A stretch of 64,000 nt of DNA from contig NC_088788.1 in assembly GCF_949628265.1 (NCBI RefSeq), positions 18,228,001 to 18,292,000 of the forward strand, read 5' to 3'. Source of the DNA: Cloeon dipterum. Taxonomy: Eukaryota; Arthropoda; Insecta; Ephemeroptera; Baetidae. Under the pieces are notes generated by a model, which did not search any database, was not told the DNA's origin, and worked only from the letters and a program-made list of their open reading frames with translations. Position 1 is the first letter of the stretch, and each line of letters opens with the position of its first letter. Below, in pieces: positions 7,601-50,047 of the stretch. The translations under genes were made by a program, and so were the position numbers.

Positions 7601-10600
7601 CTAAAAATTGTGAAGGTGAAATCTGGATCGAGTAACAGTTTTCAGATTTTGCATAATTTCTCAAAATATCAACGATTTAAAAAAATATTATTTCGCTTCA
7701 TTTCAATTCGTCTCGATACGAATCTATCCAAAAGCGAGCGAATTATGACGTAAATTTCTCTTCTGGTGAAATAAATCCCTGATATTCAAGAGGCTCGCCG
7801 TTTGAATAGCATGCAAACGTTAGAGCCAATTTTCTCAGAAATTCAAATGGCAATCTGGGAAAATTATAGCTATTTCACAATTTTTACAGAAATTCAAGTA
7901 AAGGTAAAAAATAGTTTCACAATTTTCTGTACAGTTTTACTTTCGATTGACCTTCCAAATGCGGTCTTTAAGGAAATTGCTCTTTAAAAAAATGGAATAT
8001 TTAACAGTGCTAATAAATACTATTGCTGAAATTTTAAAACGTATAATAGGATTTTTTGAATTTAGAGGTTATTTACAGGTCCAAACTGGTTTATAGGGAC
8101 ACGGCAGGGTCAATCAATTAATTACGTGATAAATTAAGAAACCGTTTGACGAAATTGCAGGATTTACGGTAGGAAATCCCTTTTAGAACCAGATAAAAAA
8201 ATGATGGGTCCATAAATAAGGCGGCAAATGGAGCGAGAGTTGTCTCGTGAAGAAAACCAACCTTGCCGAGAAGCATATGGTGCGCGCATAATTTGGCAAA
8301 CGCATTTGGCAACACTCACACACGCAAATTAATGGCCAGCGATCGCTCTTTTTGTGTCCGGACAGAGTAATAAGTCGCGTGACGCAGTTAAACCTTCTGC
8401 AGCTCAGCATTGTTGCCGAATCTTTCTTTCGCTTAAGTTTTGGAAACTGGAGCACTTTTGATTCATGGGACACGAACGAAAATGGACCGCTCGCGCGATG
8501 ATAGCATCTACAAACACACACTCGCTCGAAAAATAAATATGTTTGCGGCCGCAAATTGCGAATCGTGCCATTTGTGCAAGGCTGAGTGACGGAGAATGAT
8601 TCATGTGGCAAATAATCCAGTTCGATTGTGTACACCCTGCAGTCAATCTCTGGCCTTTAGCCTTCTGAAACTTAATTCAAAAGGCAGTAAAATCCAGTTA
8701 AAAATTATAAAAGTAGAGTGCAGTTTCTTTGATAACCTTGACAAAAATCATACGCCCAAAAATAATTAAATAATATGAGGCAATTCTAAACGCACACAAA
8801 ATTATTGTGGTAGAATTTAATTATTTTTTGCAGCACAGAATAATTTCTCGCACCTCTCGGTTTGAGTTGAGTAAATATTGATCAGTCCAGTCGCTTTAGG
8901 GCACCGAATGCAGCTGCGGATCACGAAGTAAAACAGAAAGCACGCATTAAAGGCCACCGCTGGCGCAGTTTAATAGGCACACACAAGCCGAAGGCTTATA
9001 TATAAGTATTTAATTTTATTGACCGCGTATTATATGAATTTTGCCATGAGCAGTGCTCGTGGTTGGCTCTTTTGCCATTCATTAAAATCGCCTCCAACTG
9101 TTATCGCGATGCAAACTAGATACTTAATTGCTGGCTGCCCGTTGCATGAGACAAACTCGCACACAGCACTTACTCTTTACGATATCATGGGTGCACGAGT
9201 GATTGTTTTAGCGCCAATCAAATTCGCGAAAAGTGAGAGGAGAAGGCTGGTTAAACTGGATCTATCAGCTGGGATTGTATATTGCCTCGTAATGCGCCGG
9301 CCATACATATTACGGTGTACACGTAATTCGCTCGGCTTATCAGCAGACCCGACTTTTCAATTTGGCTTGCGTGTCATATATATGTGCAGCGTGCGGTCCG
9401 CGTCCAATCGCTCTCGCACCGAATCATCTCGCTGAAAGACGGCCTGTTGCGCAATGCCAGGCGTAACTTGAAATTGATCACGCTGCTCCTTTTAAACTGG
9501 CACAATGCTGTCTTATAGGCTAAAAAGGGATCAGTTTTATGGCGTAAAAGGAGCCGAGTGGAACAAATTGCTTATATATGTACTTGTTTTTTTCGCTCCT
9601 GCGAGCGGTTCGCGTTTAATTGTCATAAATTGTTACGTAAGAAATTTCTCTCATAGAAAATTGTAATTTTCCTTACTAGTTAGGAGAACTCTCTAGATGC
9701 CCTGGATTTTATTAAATTTATTTTAAACGATTCCAGCTAAAGGAGTATTAAGATTTGCCCCATCATGTTTGCAAGATGAAAGAAATGGATTTTCGCAAGT
9801 TAAACTTTCCGTTTTTAATTTCATTCTAGATACTTGATCCAATTAATGTTGGTTTCGAAGGGTGGGAGTGTGGCGGGGTTGAAAAATAATTTTCATTCTT
9901 TTTTCATTTACCCTAAATTAAGAGTGTAGACAACTGCAAGTGATATTAAATTCTCTCTGCAATACGAAAATTGTTTTACAGGTAAAGTATTGCTGATGAA
10001 GCCTGCGGGTCAGAAACAGCTGTTACACGCATAACTAGAACGTGCGAGTAAATTTTTCTCTTTCAATTTTTCAAATTCAGCCTCACAATCTGATCAAAAA
10101 CACATGGAGTTGATCCATATTCTATACTTTTTAAGTTAATTCAAATTCCCCCTTGCACCTGTAAAGTAGAAAGACTGCTTCATTTTCTGTTGAAGAAAAA
10201 GTTATAGATTAACCTCACATTAAATCATTGATACTTTGAGTTGTTAATGACTGATCACGTGAATATGGTTGAATGATATTAAATTACTGTCTTCCACAAG
10301 GAAGGAAAATTTTCTGATATCATAATCAGTCAGCGAACATTCACTAAAGATATTTATATCGAAGAAAAAAGAATATAAACTCGTTTTCATATAGTAAGAA
10401 TTATTATTAAATCAGTTATTGCCGTTATTGCTTTCACCATTTAAACTGAATCGATAAAAAGTAGATCTAACTATTTTCCATTTCTTTGCAGCTTCATTCT
10501 AATTTTAGCGACAGGAAGAAAGTCGACACGGGGCGTGCGTTGTGCAATCAATCACGCATGCAACGCTAATTACACAATTATTATTTTTGCATTTTGTTTG

Positions 10601-21340: not shown

Positions 21341-21414
<74 letters not shown>

Positions 21415-21430
21415 TATGTATGTATGTATG

Positions 21431-21465
<35 letters not shown>

Positions 21466-21468
21466 ATG
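21341..21468. repeat. Compound microsatellite (GT)n-(GTAT)n-(AT)n-(GT)n
   Basis: About 70 bases of pure TG/GT alternation are followed by several GTAT units, an AT run and another GT run ending near 21468. It is a dinucleotide microsatellite with transitional tetranucleotide units. Copy number is likely polymorphic. Confidence 0.95.
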
Positions 21469-24400
21469 TTCAATGCATTGAAAACAGGCGGATTTAAAAT
21501 ACATAAATAAATTGTCACTAAAGGATGAATGAAAAACAAGGAAATTTTAACAAGTAGTCGTGGGTGATGTGTTTTTGTAGACGAAAATTTGGAGATGACG
21601 GGAATTAATTACTCCCAAATCCTTCAAATGTGCTTCAGGATCGACTCGTCTTCACTCAGTATTATCGATATTTTGAAAAGTTGGACTTTCATCAGTCACC
21701 TGTGAGCTCAGTTCTACAGATTTAGCCTCGATAAATAGCCAATTAAAATAAAAACAATGTGACCAAAATTGGTACCAATTGGCACTTCTGTAGATTTGAA
21801 AAATTTGCTTTCCTGTTGTTTCAAAATGTGAAGCACGGCACATTCGTCACAAATTTCTCAAATGTTTTAGCCTTAACCGTTGTGGCAAAAATTTTTTTCT
21901 TTCCATTTATTGCGATTGAAAATGCGTTTAATTCACACTAAATAGAGAAGGAAATCTCGTGCACTACGTTTTTTTGTCTTCCACTTTGGGAAGAAAATAT
22001 AACTCAAAATGATTGTTTAAAAAATTTAAATTTTTTATAAGTTAGTGCATGTGGTGCAATTTTTCTGAGAAAATGATATAGTGACTTGTTAATATGCCTC
22101 AAAACACCGTCAAATCGTTTCAGAAACCGTCGTATAATTCGAAAAGTCTAAAATGAGTTAACTATACTCTGAAAAAACCATCTATGATTCACAAATCAAA
22201 CTGTTGATAATCGTTCTCTGCTAAAAAGAACCAAAAATGCATTAGAAAGGTAATCTACTCCTGCTAAATTAGTCCCAGTGTAAAATAAAACGTGATCTAG
22301 TTTAAGCCTCTTTGGCTTCAGCCGGCTTCAGCTTGTGGCAGTTCGGGGTCCTCGGTAGTAACCCACAAGCTAACCCCCAAAAGAAATGGATACCAATTTG
22401 TCTGATTTTCAAGGCAAATGAATGAAACGAGTTGTAATTCAATTCAACAGTTAGTTTTGGAAATTCTAGCAGGTTCTGCTGTCGAACCGCACACGTCATA
22501 ACAATAACTGTGTCACGCGCGTAATGGACGAGAAGTGTCTCGTCGTCTATTTAGAAGCTCGTTTGCGGCAGCTGCAGTGGCGTTCAATTATTCGGAGAAA
22601 TGCACGCAGGATCGTGACCCCAATTGAAAATAAAAGCTCAATCCACTCTTTATATAGACGGATAGATTTACAATTCAAGAGTGAAATTCACGCCGACGTG
22701 CAATTCGAGTTCGGAATTCCTCATTTCGTTGCAACACGCACCGCGCGTTCATTAGACTCTCTCGCGGTCGTCGCCGGCGAAATGCATAATATGTCCGTGT
22801 AATTGGCTAAATAAATGCGGAGATGAGCCAGCTACATTACAATCGCGTGGCAGCAAATCGAGACGAGGAAACGGCCGCGCGGGCTGATTGTTTCACACAC
22901 GTGCGGATCAAGTGCGCGGCGTATTATGCAACTGTCGCAAGCGCGCGCGCGTTGAAAGTGAAATTGGACTCGCGCGCGCGCTTGCCAGCAACTAACTACT
23001 CATCCTCGTAACACGCGGGCAATCGGATTTATCGTTTTTGTTCGAGCAATTTGTTTGATTGGCTGGAAACGAGCTTAACGGCATCGTAAATCCTCAACAA
23101 ACACCATTTAATGTCAGGTCCAACCGCAATTGGAATGCAAAATGAACGGGCAATTTGCGAAACATTGTGACACATGACTGAAGTTGCGTCTTCTACAGAA
23201 ACATTGGTTTATTTTGCAACAGTAGTTTTTTAATTATCATAGCATTTGCTATGGTAACTCATTATAACCAATATTAAATTAAATATACTGTTTTATATGT
23301 ATGTTAACTCTTTTTATTTTCAATATTTTTGAACTCGTTAAATATTTAAGAGGATTATTATAGTTACAGAAATGTGAAGACTTATATTTTACTCTCTAAA
23401 TGAGTAAGAAAATTTTATTAGCAAAAGGAAAATTTAAAACAATATTTTATGATGATGCTTAATTTAATGCATAGGTTTTCATAATCAATGTCTAAAAAAT
23501 TCAATCTGAAGCTTATAGATTGAACAAGAAATGTGGTGTTAATTTGATAGAAAGTTCAATAAATTTACTACTTGAAGTATTGAAACAAATGCAAAAAATA
23601 TTTTGATCGCCTTTTTAGCTCTTAACCCATCTAACATTTTTTTAAATATCTTTAAACTACACTGCCAAAATTATAGTTCAATTTTCAAAATGCCTTGCAG
23701 TTGTTTATAGGAATAAAAAATAAAGGTCATCAACAAGGATAATCTGCAGGATATCCTTCCTGATTTATTTCTTTCCCACAAATAATAATTGGTCTGCTCA
23801 CTGTGGAGTTCTTGGGAAATAAATATGAATCTACGAATTGTGCGCCTTATCTAATAGGTTTCTGTTGGTCCTCGGCATTTTTGTTGCAAAGCCGGCGGCA
23901 CTTCCTACGCAGGCGTAAGCAACAATTATTTTGTCAGGGTCTTTTCCTCTCTATTTCGTCTGCCATGCCACAGCCCGTCTGCGAAAACACAACAGATTCA
24001 GGGTCCTCACGCCGGAAGAAAGGAACTAGTTTCGAAACGATCATCAATAATCATTATATCGTGTTGATAATATATTTTTTGCTAAAACAAATTTCGCGTT
24101 TTGGCTGCAGATCATTTTTTGCACCAGGAGAAAATAAAGGGAGAAGCAAAAACTGTTAAAACGAGGCTATAATTTATTCGTAAGGAAATTTCAAGACTAG
24201 GGTAGATTTTATTAAATTTTGAGTTGTAATATTAGTCTCTAGATGAAAGAATGATAATTTTTTTCAATGCTGTATTTAATTTGATATTATTCACTATATA
24301 TATTTAATTTAGATAGATTTAATTTGCACAAAATCTAAGAAAATATGTTAATTAAATCTAGAGATTTATCTTCCTATTTATCTTCTTGAAAAAAGGAGCG

Positions 24401-24918: not shown

Positions 24919-25548
24919 ATGTTCAGATTTGTAAGTACCGCTCTTTAGAAACTGAAAATCGAACAATTTGTAATTATAAAATTAAAAAATAAAATATTAA
25001 CCGACACACCCTGAATTCAGGTTGCTCTCGCCGCCCTCCTGGCCGTCGCCAACGCCGGAAACCTCCTGGCCCCCGCTGCCTATGCCAGCCCCCTGGCTTA
25101 TGGAGCTTACGGAGCCTACGCCGCCCCCGCCTACGCCGCCCACGCTGCGTACGCCCCCGCCTACGCCCCCGCTGCCTACGCCGCCCCCGCCGTCGTTAAG
25201 ACCGTCGCCCCCGTCGCCACCTCTTACGCCAACACCTACAAGGTCGCCGTCAAGGCCCCCGTCGTCGCCGCCGCCCCCGTCGCCTACGCCGCTCACGCTC
25301 CTGTCGTCGCCGCCCCCGCCTACGCTTCCTACGCCGCCCCCGCCTACACCTCCTACGCCGCCCCCGCTGTCGTGAAGACCGCCATCGCTGCCCCTGCCTA
25401 CACCTCGTACGCCGCCCCCGCTTACGCTTCCTACGCCGCCCCCGCTGTCGTTAAGACCGTGGCTGCCGCCCCCGCCTACACCTCGTACGCTGCTCCCGCT
25501 TATGCTTCCTACGCCGCCCCCGCCTACGGCGCTGCCCTCATCCACTAA
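24919..25548 (+). CDS. Ala/Pro/Tyr-repeat structural cuticle protein (paralogue)
   Basis: Two coding exons, 24919-24930 (MFRF, then GTAAGT) and 25021-25548, encode 179 residues. The signal peptide MFRFVALAALLAVANAG is followed by AAPAYAAHAAY-like, VVKTVAPVATSYANTYKVAV and AAPAYASY/AAPAYTSY blocks, ending in GAALIH. It is clearly a paralogue of the 209-residue protein at 887-1610. The two share the phase-0 intron after codon 4, a similar intron end (ACCCTGA followed by TTCAG after one variable base), the conserved SYANTYKVAVK segment, and ends YGATLLH versus YGAALIH. It has fewer tandem units. Codon third positions are almost all C or G. The expected role is a non-RR structural protein of chitinous cuticle, secreted by epidermis. 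Confidence 0.9.
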
Positions 25549-46432: not shown

Positions 46433-47666
46433 CGCTTATTTTTTCTACGTCGAGCCCGGTCGAGCCAAAATCTAAAAAATTGAAAATATCATCAACTTTC
46501 AAAATAAATGTAAAAAACACGAAAGTAATTTTTTAAGAAGTTGTAGCTGAAATTTTCACTCAACTATATAATGAGGAAAAATTGTTTTAGTGTCAAGTGT
46601 CAACTCATGCTATTTGCATTTATATTAAAAAACCATAAAACATATATTCCATGAATTAAAAGAATACCTCAAGAACGCCTGGAGGTCCACTGATGAGCTA
46701 CACGAAAAAGATTATCTTCGACAAATTACACAGATTTTTTACTAAATAATAAAGACTGAGATATTTATCTCTGCTATGGTTATTGCATCATGCTCTCTTG
46801 CTTATTGCGTCGAAAAACCGATATGATATTATCAGACAAAATGATAGTAATGACGTGATGTACATAGAGATATGATATGGAAAAGAGATCTAAATAGGTT
46901 AAAGTGTTGACCAAGACACGTAATCTAACGTACATTTTTTTTTAAAGATTTCTTGACTTATCATTAAGAAACCATAGGTACTACACCGTTAGTCTCTATT
47001 ATCACTTTCACTCCATATATGGTCTTCAACACTCTAGAAAATCGTTTCAAATTTGGAATTAAAAATATTCTTACTTAAAAAATGTCAAAAATCAAACAGG
47101 ACATCTTACTGTTAATCTGATTTGTAATTGCTTTTATTTGAATTTATTTTTTCAGCAAGTTTAGATATTAGTAAAGACTTCAAATTATTATAAAGGAGCT
47201 GACATTTTCATTAAATTTTTTTCAATCCTATAATTTATTTCAAATGATTTTACTATCAACATATTTTCAAACAAATTTATGTTTTGAACAAAGTGTATAC
47301 TTGACTTTATTAAACAATTTTCAGCTTGCAAATAAAATATTTATTTTAATTTTTGTTTGAAAACAAATAATTTATTTCTTTCCGATCTAAGAGAGACCAA
47401 AAGTTAAAGTTAAATCGTTAATTATATCTTTAACTCTTTCCTTTCCGTCAAACTTATGCTGACAACGAGCTTGTATATAACGAGTGCTAAGTATATAACA
47501 TAAAACTATTTAAATACTTCTTGCACCATAGAGTGCAGAGTGCATTCTATCTTGTTATAAAGCTGCCCGCAAACTTTACTTACTTGTAGTAGTGGTTTTA
47601 CCTTTATGTTTATATCAGCGAAATTTTTACAACAAAGCTTTCTTATTATTGTGGGATCTTTGTACT
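46433..47666. other. Upstream region of the alpha-arrestin gene
   Basis: AT-rich sequence with no open frame of note. It ends at the left edge of the palindromic element. A 5' non-coding exon of the arrestin could lie here. Confidence 0.5.
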
Positions 47667-47951
47667 GGAAGGATCTAAATCAAGTGACACCCCCCTTGGC
47701 AAGTGGTCTTCAGATTTTGATAAAATTCGGTGGAGATGTTGCCCTAGGGGACCTAAGTTGAACCCTAAAATATTAGGTGAAAATTCCAAAAATTGCCCAT
47801 TTTACGGGGGTTCAAAATTTGAGATTTTTGAAAAAGGTGATGTTTTCGGCGATTTGTAACTTTGACTCTGTTTGTGGTAAACACAAAAATTTAGTATCCA
47901 AAATAATCTACGTTTAATGCCAAACAACTTCCCCACGACGACCAACTTCGT

Positions 47952-47970
47952 AGGTCAAAGGTCAAGGTCA
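47952..47970 (+). promoter_or_regulatory. Three tandem AGGTCA nuclear-receptor half-sites, left arm
   Basis: AGGTCA occurs at 47952-47957, 47959-47964 and 47965-47970, that is, a DR1 followed directly by a DR0. The last nine bases, TCAAGGTCA, match the FTZ-F1/SF-1 extended half-site. The site is by sequence match only, with no evidence of function. Confidence 0.5.
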
Positions 47971-49309
47971 CTAAATTCGGGTCAAATTTTTCAAAAAAAT
48001 CCCACATACCCTAGTACATAAAATTTTGAAAATTCAAAATAGCCAAAATGTGCCTCATATTCATGGTAACAACATATAAAAAATTGGCGAGACTTATTTT
48101 TTTCTTTTTCGAGATATTTTGAATTGAGTGTTAAAAACCGGTGTTTTCCGGGTCTTCTGATCGCAAATAAAAACACGTTTTCCGCTTAATCTCAGCTTCT
48201 ATGGGTCCGATTTAGAAAAACCGCACACCATTTGATACGTAATGACCTCCCCTAGGTAATGCAAGGGATCATAAGGGTGCCCACCCCTTTCAAACCCTTA
48301 ACCACCCCCTGGAAATCCGAAAATTTTTTTTTCAAATATTTACTCTCTAACTCGATTAATTAAGCAAAATACTAATCAAACATGATTTAAAATAATTAAA
48401 ATGTATAATATTTTCATTTACTTTGTAGAAAAATAACTTTAAAAAAGTAAAATTGCTATTAATAAAATAATTTAAGTTTATTTTAAATATATAATTATTT
48501 TGGGTTTTTGTTTATTCAAAATAGCTGATTTTTTTATTTTTTTTTTAAGAATTTTAGAATATGTTTTATATTCTAGAGTGTTCTTCTATTATAATAAATA
48601 AATGCAACCATTAATATTTGTTAAACCATAAGCATTTGGTAAAAATTGTGTGCTTAACAAATTATTGGTATTGGTTGCATTTCTTTATATTTATAAAGAA
48701 ACACTGTAAAATATAAAATAAATTTTAAAATTCTAAAAAAAAAATAAATAAATCAGCTATTTTGAATAAACAAAAACCCAAAATAATTATATATTTAAAA
48801 TAAACTTAAATTATTTTATTAATAGCAATTTTACTTTTTTAAAGTTATTTTTCTACAAAGTAAATGAAAATATTATACATTTTAATTATTTTAAATCATG
48901 TTTGATTAGTATTTTGCTTAATTAATCGAGTTAGAGAGTAAATATTTGAAAAAAAATTTTCGGATTTCCAGGGGGTGGTTAAGGGTTTGAAAGGGGTGGG
49001 CACCCTTATGATCCCTTGCATTACCTAGGGGAGGTCATTACGTATCAAATGGTGTGCGGTTTTTCTAAATCGGACCCATAGAAGCTGAGATTAAGCGGAA
49101 AACGTGTTTTTATTTGCGATCAGAAGACCCGGAAAACACCGGTTTTTAACACTCAATTCAAAATATCTCGAAAAAGAAAAAAATAAGTCTCGCCAATTTT
49201 TTATATGTTGTTACCATGAATATGAGGCACATTTTGGCTATTTTGAATTTTCAAAATTTTATGTACTAGGGTATGTGGGATTTTTTTGAAAAATTTGACC
49301 CGAATTTAG

Positions 49310-49328
49310 TGACCTTGACCTTTGACCT
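49310..49328 (-). promoter_or_regulatory. Three tandem AGGTCA nuclear-receptor half-sites, right arm
   Basis: This is the mirror copy of the left-arm cluster, reading TGACCTTGACCTTTGACCT on the plus strand. It points at the prefoldin promoter about 0.7 kb away. Confidence 0.5.
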
Positions 49329-49613
49329 ACGAAGTTGGTCGTCGTGGGGAAGTTGTTTGGCATTAAACGTAGATTATTTTGGATACTAAATTTTTGTGTT
49401 TACCACAAACAGAGTCAAAGTTACAAATCGCCGAAAACATCACCTTTTTCAAAAATCTCAAATTTTGAACCCCCGTAAAATGGGCAATTTTTGGAATTTT
49501 CACCTAATATTTTAGGGTTCAACTTAGGTCCCCTAGGGCAACATCTCCACCGAATTTTATCAAAATCTGAAGACCACTTGCCAAGGGGGGTGTCACTTGA
49601 TTTAGATCCTTCC

Positions 49614-50047
49614 TACTACAAACTATTTTTTAAATTCTTTGGCTCCAGTCCAATGCCTCATTAATTCATTAATTTTTCCCTGCCTTCCTTTTCAAACCGT
49701 TAAATCTTTGCAAAAAAATGTGCAATCAAATCGAAATTTTGAAAATTACCGGAACTTTCCGGAAATTTCACTACTTGCACATATTGTGTTCAAAGTTCAA
49801 GGACAGCATTATACATTATAGTGCTTTTTGTTGGATTCATTTTTATTTCCGTGGTTAGTATGACATTATTTAACTTCTTTTGCTTTTTCACGTGATGTCG
49901 TGATTAATAAAAAAACATGACTCGGTGTTGTGTCCTTGAAAAACAGGAAAAATGCACAATACGAATGCACGCACGAGCTCTGCTATCTAATCTTGCATTT
50001 TTCTGAATCAGATTCAGATTGACTCTTCGCGCGCTTTGGTGTGGAGC
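49614..50047. other. Upstream region of the prefoldin 6 gene
   Basis: AT-rich sequence with no gene seen, between the palindromic element and the prefoldin promoter. Confidence 0.5.

Follow-up and report, generated by a model that had tools for sequence, protein, structure and literature searches.

A 64,000-nucleotide stretch of the genome of the mayfly Cloeon dipterum (NC_088788.1, positions 18,228,001 to 18,292,000; hereafter the window) holds a 1.95-kb palindrome with arms that are nearly exact reverse complements of one another. What kind of element is this, how did it come to have two copies of the same end, and what keeps those copies alike? The gene responsible for moving a foldback element usually does not turn up with it, and ideas on how long inverted repeats keep their identity draw on a handful of cases in Drosophila and nematodes.

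An inverted-repeat search places the palindrome at 47667-49613 (1,947 bp), with the outer 665 nt of each side (47667-48331 and 48949-49613) 100% complementary. Inward of these perfect arms lies an overlapping 270-nt pair at 92% ungapped identity, its register shifted by a 1-nt indel, and the innermost pair, 84 nt at 80%, flanks a 55-nt centre. When the arms are aligned to each other with gaps, identity is 99.55% over 894 bp and about 160 bp remain in the middle. The near-perfect palindrome, the diverged middle and the flanking TACT repeats named in a preliminary description of this locus were thus all recovered. The features are as follows.

47663 to 47666, no strand: left target-site duplication TACT, from the sequence and the duplication scoring
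47667 to 49613, no strand: the whole palindromic non-autonomous transposon, 1,947 bp
47667 to 48560, forward strand: left arm, 894 bp, with terminus GGAAGGATC; made up of about 650-680 bp of terminal inverted repeat (TIR) shared with coding elements, then sequence related to their 5' interior
48561 to 48721, no strand: asymmetric centre or loop, common to 28 of 28 full-length copies
48604 to 48610, with a mirror at 48672 to 48678: GCAACCA within the loop; in the coding elements this motif stands directly upstream of the predicted start codon
48722 to 49613, reverse strand: right arm, 892 bp, the reverse complement of the left arm and likewise derived from the 5' end
49614 to 49617, no strand: right target-site duplication TACT

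The palindrome itself has no long reading frame: among stop-to-stop frames of at least 80 codons, the sole one overlapping it is 88 aa long and enters from the flank. The preliminary description had reported no transposase frame, which is correct for the window copy, but two candidate genes lie between related termini elsewhere in the genome. Tandem repeats in the arms are limited to units of 6-8 bp in 2-3 copies, and do not explain the palindrome. The left flank of the window copy (400 bp) is single-copy in the assembly. Elsewhere in the window there are two similar frames with AYAAPA-type repeats on opposite strands (890-1510, reverse; 25015-25545, forward), which we take to be like arthropod cuticle proteins, and a TG dinucleotide run of about 64 units at 21342-21469.

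The palindrome belongs to a dispersed family. When one arm was searched against the genome of the window (190 Mb, 10 contigs), the scored matches fell nearly all in inverted pairs; 40 of 376 first-look candidates were scored, so that the copy number is a lower bound. A 23-base terminus pattern, allowing up to two mismatches, was found genome-wide at 35 forward and 35 reverse sites, and its reversed control at none, so that the dispersed copies with the same termini which the preliminary description had set as a test are present. Around these termini 39 stretches were fetched for analysis, and they include at least 28 full-length palindromic copies of 1,937-1,957 bp. Two loop types, counted by eye, are present among the 28 (16 and 12 copies). 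In one of the fetched loci, L039 (C2:13075240-13085200), two family termini (positions 600 and 9359) lie inside a longer inverted repeat (299-1226 and 8733-9660) which runs about 300 bp past the termini and lacks a target duplication. A 1.7-kb direct repeat at 99% lies within it, and its outer flank recurs at C2:12907677-12907979, adjoining a single family end; L039 may be a family member enclosed by a larger inverted duplication.

The 4-bp duplications sought at other copies are perfect at 26 of the 28 full-length palindromes and at 27 of the 30 distinct two-ended elements (the 28 palindromes, L040 and L041), being missing in L041, L062 and L064. The scoring table gives 28 of 31 rows, as L078 repeats L040; L039 and L042 were left out, and L079, with ends that differ at five positions, was scored apart. 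Random re-pairing of left and right flanks yields a 4-bp duplication in 460 of 30,028 pairs. The duplicated tetramers are varied and AT-rich, with a weak position preference (A 16, T 14, A 19, T 17 of the 31 rows, L078 again repeating L040). Flank repeats usable for finding empty sites were absent among the fetched loci, where the flank comparison gave two matches, both of 33 bp between an L066 flank and L073. A target duplication of fixed length and shared termini at dispersed sites characterise a TIR DNA transposon, and arms of 894 bp within 1,947 bp, with 28 full-length copies aligned arm to arm, give the structure of a foldback; the palindrome is a non-autonomous foldback DNA transposon.

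Long inverted repeats are difficult to assemble, and collapsed or duplicated arms could in principle be an assembly artefact. The uniform length, the conserved asymmetric loop, the matching 4-bp duplications and the presence of at least one substitution between the arms (outer 660 bp) in 25 of 28 copies make this explanation hardly credible. The preliminary description had itself named a single copy without terminal conservation elsewhere, or an assembly artefact, as ways in which it could fail; with 28 full-length copies sharing the structure, the palindrome is no peculiarity of a single assembled locus.

Two elements of about 4 kb with related termini carry long open exons.

L040, C2:34853707-34857709: 4,003 bp; TIRs of 769 bp at 99.6%; duplication AAAT; 619-codon open exon
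L079/L080, C2:6500319-6504305: 3,987 bp; TIRs of 716 bp at 100%; duplication ACAT; 621-codon open exon

A protein search of the genome with the L040 protein gave two matches, L040 itself and L079. The two exons are identical at 490 of 613 aligned residues (80%), and dN/dS between them is 0.16 (NG86) or 0.20 (YN00), which points to purifying selection. Both elements have an upstream first exon with two cysteine pairs, joined in frame by a GT-AG intron, giving predicted proteins of 692 and 682 aa. No match above cut-off was obtained for the candidate transposase in Pfam, NCBIfam or PDB; specifically, Pfam gave no MULE match, a THAP match was absent from exon 1 of L040 and from exon 2 of L040 and L079, a scan of viral contigs found no relative, and short motif strings of the protein led to a single paper in the literature, which was unrelated. 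By eye, acidic motifs in the L040 exon (ADFSEN at residue 391, SDGAPSQYKN at 475, HGKNSCDGLGG at 511) look like a DDE/D core. Given its place between the TIRs, the purifying selection and these motifs, the gene is probably a transposase, and the ~4-kb coding elements are the probable autonomous source of the palindrome family. Over its outer ~650 bp the arm matches L040 at about 92% identity and L079 at 85-89%, and mobilisation of the palindrome by the L040/L079 genes across TIR identities of 85-92% is assumed here.

Within the arms, at 47952-47970 of the window with a mirror at 49310-49328, lies AGGTCAAAGGTCAAGGTCA, which resembles the half-sites of nuclear receptors of the steroid-receptor type. 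The full 19-mer occurs in 44 of 56 arms, and TCAAGGTCA in 55 of 56 arms as well as in both TIRs of L040 and of L079. Special conservation of this hormone-receptor-like motif was ruled out by its rank, 265 of 641 windows.

The coding elements also bear on how the palindrome arose. Inward of the TIRs the two ends of a coding element are dissimilar, so that one can ask from which end each palindrome arm is derived. The inner arms (both arms of the window copy and of L053) were compared with the 5' interior of L079, and in four of four tests 0 of 300 shuffles reached the observed score. Against the 5' interior of L040 the count was 0 of 300 in three tests and 2 of 300 for the left arm of the window copy. 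In eight tests against the 3' interiors, the score was reached by 35, 90, 67, 157, 299, 222, 274 and 172 of 300 shuffles (lowest 35, though a range of 26 to 299 is also given for the eight tests). The match to the 5' interior extends to GCAACCA. Since both arms match the 5' and not the 3' interior, the palindrome consists of a 5' end and an inverted 5' end; judged by these matches, it is an inverted duplication of one end of the coding element, as in Galileo. The one asymmetric loop common to all 28 copies indicates a single origin for them.

Could such a palindrome be kept as a natural silencing trigger, with a transcript that folds into long double-stranded RNA? The structure permits it, and silencing would then fall on the family itself, since homology to the arms is present at both ends of the coding elements and in their 5' leader. 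Against this, no known RNA family matches (the palindrome has no match in Rfam), and the full-length copies lie in both orientations, half of them (14 of 28) pointing the same way as the window copy and half the opposite way, which looks like ordinary spread. We consider this role highly improbable.

The preliminary description had read the likeness of the arms as recent insertion or arm-to-arm conversion, and both hold. The window copy is probably young, since one arm of the copy at C4:16910126-16912074 is identical to it throughout the outer 660 bp. Some copies are near-identical to one another, and it might be supposed that the arms are alike merely from youth, a single identical-armed source having been copied recently with no exchange between arms. 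The common loop gives a direct expectation for this: without exchange, the arms of a copy would have separated no later than the copies themselves did, and divergence between the arms of a copy should equal or exceed that between the same arms of different copies. Over the outer 660 bp, the mean divergence of the 28 copies is 0.58% within and 3.3% between copies (these arm statistics omit the one-ended L049, L052, L054, L055, L069, L076 and L077, and L041, which is internally deleted). Alleles private to one copy tell against youth as well, with 43 in both arms and 55 in one arm over the outer 780 bp. Youth by itself is therefore very unlikely to account for the family, even though one pair of sister copies, discussed below, has kept arm-specific differences through transposition. 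As to the diverged centre, which had been taken to favour conversion, the conclusion stands on the comparison between copies; the argument from the centre alone does not, because an asymmetric loop inherited by 28 of 28 copies does not in itself show conversion.

Several other comparisons bear on the concerted behaviour of the arms. Mates carry the same allele in 1,189 of 1,228 comparisons (0.968) at 44 subfamily sites, and in 200 re-pairings of arms among copies the agreement averaged 0.665 and never exceeded 0.770. When copies are oriented by their loop, left-left and left-right distances between copies stay equal as far as 780 bp and part first at 840-890 bp (0.129 vs 0.138). In a tree of the 56 arms, mates fall together for most copies, but in several recent sister sets the arms group by side instead; 23 of 56 arms have their closest counterpart in another copy, because sister copies are equally close. 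Among within-copy mismatches in the outer 660 bp, 65 of 103 involve an allele that occurs elsewhere in the family, so that not all are fresh private mutations; these alleles must go back to common ancestry, to exchange between copies or to recurrent change. Of the 18 differences between the arms of L050, 12 are concentrated at arm positions 252-321; at several sites there, one arm has the alleles of the commoner group, and the segment is likely a conversion tract from exchange with another copy. Taken by their alleles, the arms have been homogenised across the family, and more weakly near the loop.

This weakening is graded. In thirteen bins of 60 bp from the tip inward to 780 bp, divergence within copies is 0.03-0.32 of that between copies, and in the two bins that follow the ratio rises to 0.46 and 0.64. 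Of the alleles private to one copy, a fraction of 0.38-0.52 stands in both arms, dropping to 0.17 innermost; in the 110 bp beyond 780 bp, 5 private alleles are in both arms and 24 in one. We lean towards repair of breaks at the tip, which would act on the outer arm, rather than a cruciform extruded from the centre, which would act on the inner arm. A divergence barrier near the loop, or poorer alignment of its AT-rich part, could give the same gradient.

A hairpin-like intermediate that necessarily equalises the arms at each transposition would explain why they are near-identical on most lineages. The sister copies L056 and L059, however, have seven arm-specific differences in common with the same loop orientation, and their recorded flanks are unrelated; transposition can thus carry an unhomogenised arm pair, and homogenisation is not obligatory at each event. 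Arm-specific differences common to sisters in the same loop orientation, and which therefore survived transposition, are also found in L044/L061 (three), L046/L073 (four) and L058/L071 (three). Origin of these sister pairs by segmental duplication would undo this argument, but the flanks recorded for them show no match to one another. Moreover, a hairpin extruded from the centre should pair the innermost arm first, and this is the part least homogenised. An obligatory intermediate of this kind is very unlikely.

More speculative is the idea that the transposase itself starts the homogenisation. Breaks at the tips would be repaired from the other arm, and conversion would run inward and fade towards the loop, the transposase being of a superfamily that is undefined or not yet linked to foldbacks. 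We hold this to be possible but rather doubtful. If true, the element would keep both of its transposase-binding ends correct, in a selfish proof-reading loop.

Recombination between the arms is part of the account that we prefer as a whole. We think it very probable that the palindrome is a non-coding cut-and-paste transposon mobilised in trans, with a 5'-5' palindrome of single origin and arms that recombine. Legible in the sequence are the dispersal, the target duplications, the intact candidate genes, the 5'-5' structure, the common loop and the concert that weakens towards it. The events behind these can be proposed as follows. The ends of the palindrome would most likely be bound and cut by the transposase of the ~4-kb relatives, and cut-and-paste insertion would leave the 4-bp target duplication. 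In such a relative, an inverted copy of the opposite (5') end would have taken the place of one end, in a single event to judge by the copies sampled; probably a break was repaired with the other arm as template and synthesis continued beyond the inverted repeat. The product would then have multiplied, to give 28 or more full-length copies of two loop types. Its long and similar arms would recombine with each other and occasionally with other copies, so that a mutation is lost or spreads to both arms; we infer break repair as the homogenising process.

Galileo, Tetris and Tm1 already provide examples of foldbacks, of long TIRs that resemble each other within a copy and of TIRs extended by inverted copying. 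In Galileo, of the P superfamily in Drosophila, TIR1-F1-F1-TIR2 copies have sequence internal to one TIR copied inverted beside the other, TIRs are 98-100% identical within a copy, and chimeric copies occur; the arrangement is attributed to repair in which one TIR served as template for the other and copying went on beyond it (PMC3573991). The window palindrome has the same arrangement, and differs in its 4-bp duplications (7 bp in Galileo) and in exons without a THAP match. Nearly complete copies are a minority there (10 of 170 in Table 1 of that report), whereas one palindromic form of uniform length dominates the copies sampled here. With 4-bp duplications and no THAP match in its exons, the family lacks the marks of the P superfamily (a THAP domain and duplications of 7-8 bp).

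Long inverted arms that are non-coding and dispersed are shared with Tetris and Foldback of Drosophila, and homogenisation of TIR repeats within a copy has been suggested as possible for Tetris (PMC4079207). Tetris has 8-10 bp duplications, its TIRs contain tandem repeats of 220 bp, and a coding partner was not found for it; the mayfly family has 4-bp duplications and two candidate coding partners, and its tandem arrays do not exceed 3 units of 6-8 bp. Tandem repeats in the arms, a trait of FB, Galileo and Tetris though not of all foldbacks, are absent apart from these short units. A rare coding member with many non-coding foldbacks recalls the Tm1 Mutator/Foldback elements of root-knot nematodes, which have mostly 9-bp duplications, a MULE transposase and within-element TIR identity averaging 93% (PMC3169594). 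Mutator foldbacks are recognised by 8-10 bp duplications and a MULE transposase, and here the duplications are of 4 bp and Pfam gives no MULE match. AT-rich 4-bp target duplications like those found here are described for Sola2, with TIRs of 12-21 bp as against 716-769 bp in the coding elements (PMC3627910). Sola may be a lead to the superfamily of the family, by analogy of duplication type, and as such is unproven. No published description of this palindrome family was recognised from titles and abstracts; Repbase and Dfam, which lay outside that search, may already name it.

A single genome thus offers at least 28 comparable palindromes of apparently single origin together with two candidate source genes. 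Their origin by 5'-5' inverted duplication, their spread and the homogenisation of their arms, including its gradient from tip to loop, can be separated from one another and measured. Such palindromes may also serve as sites of ectopic recombination and inversion.
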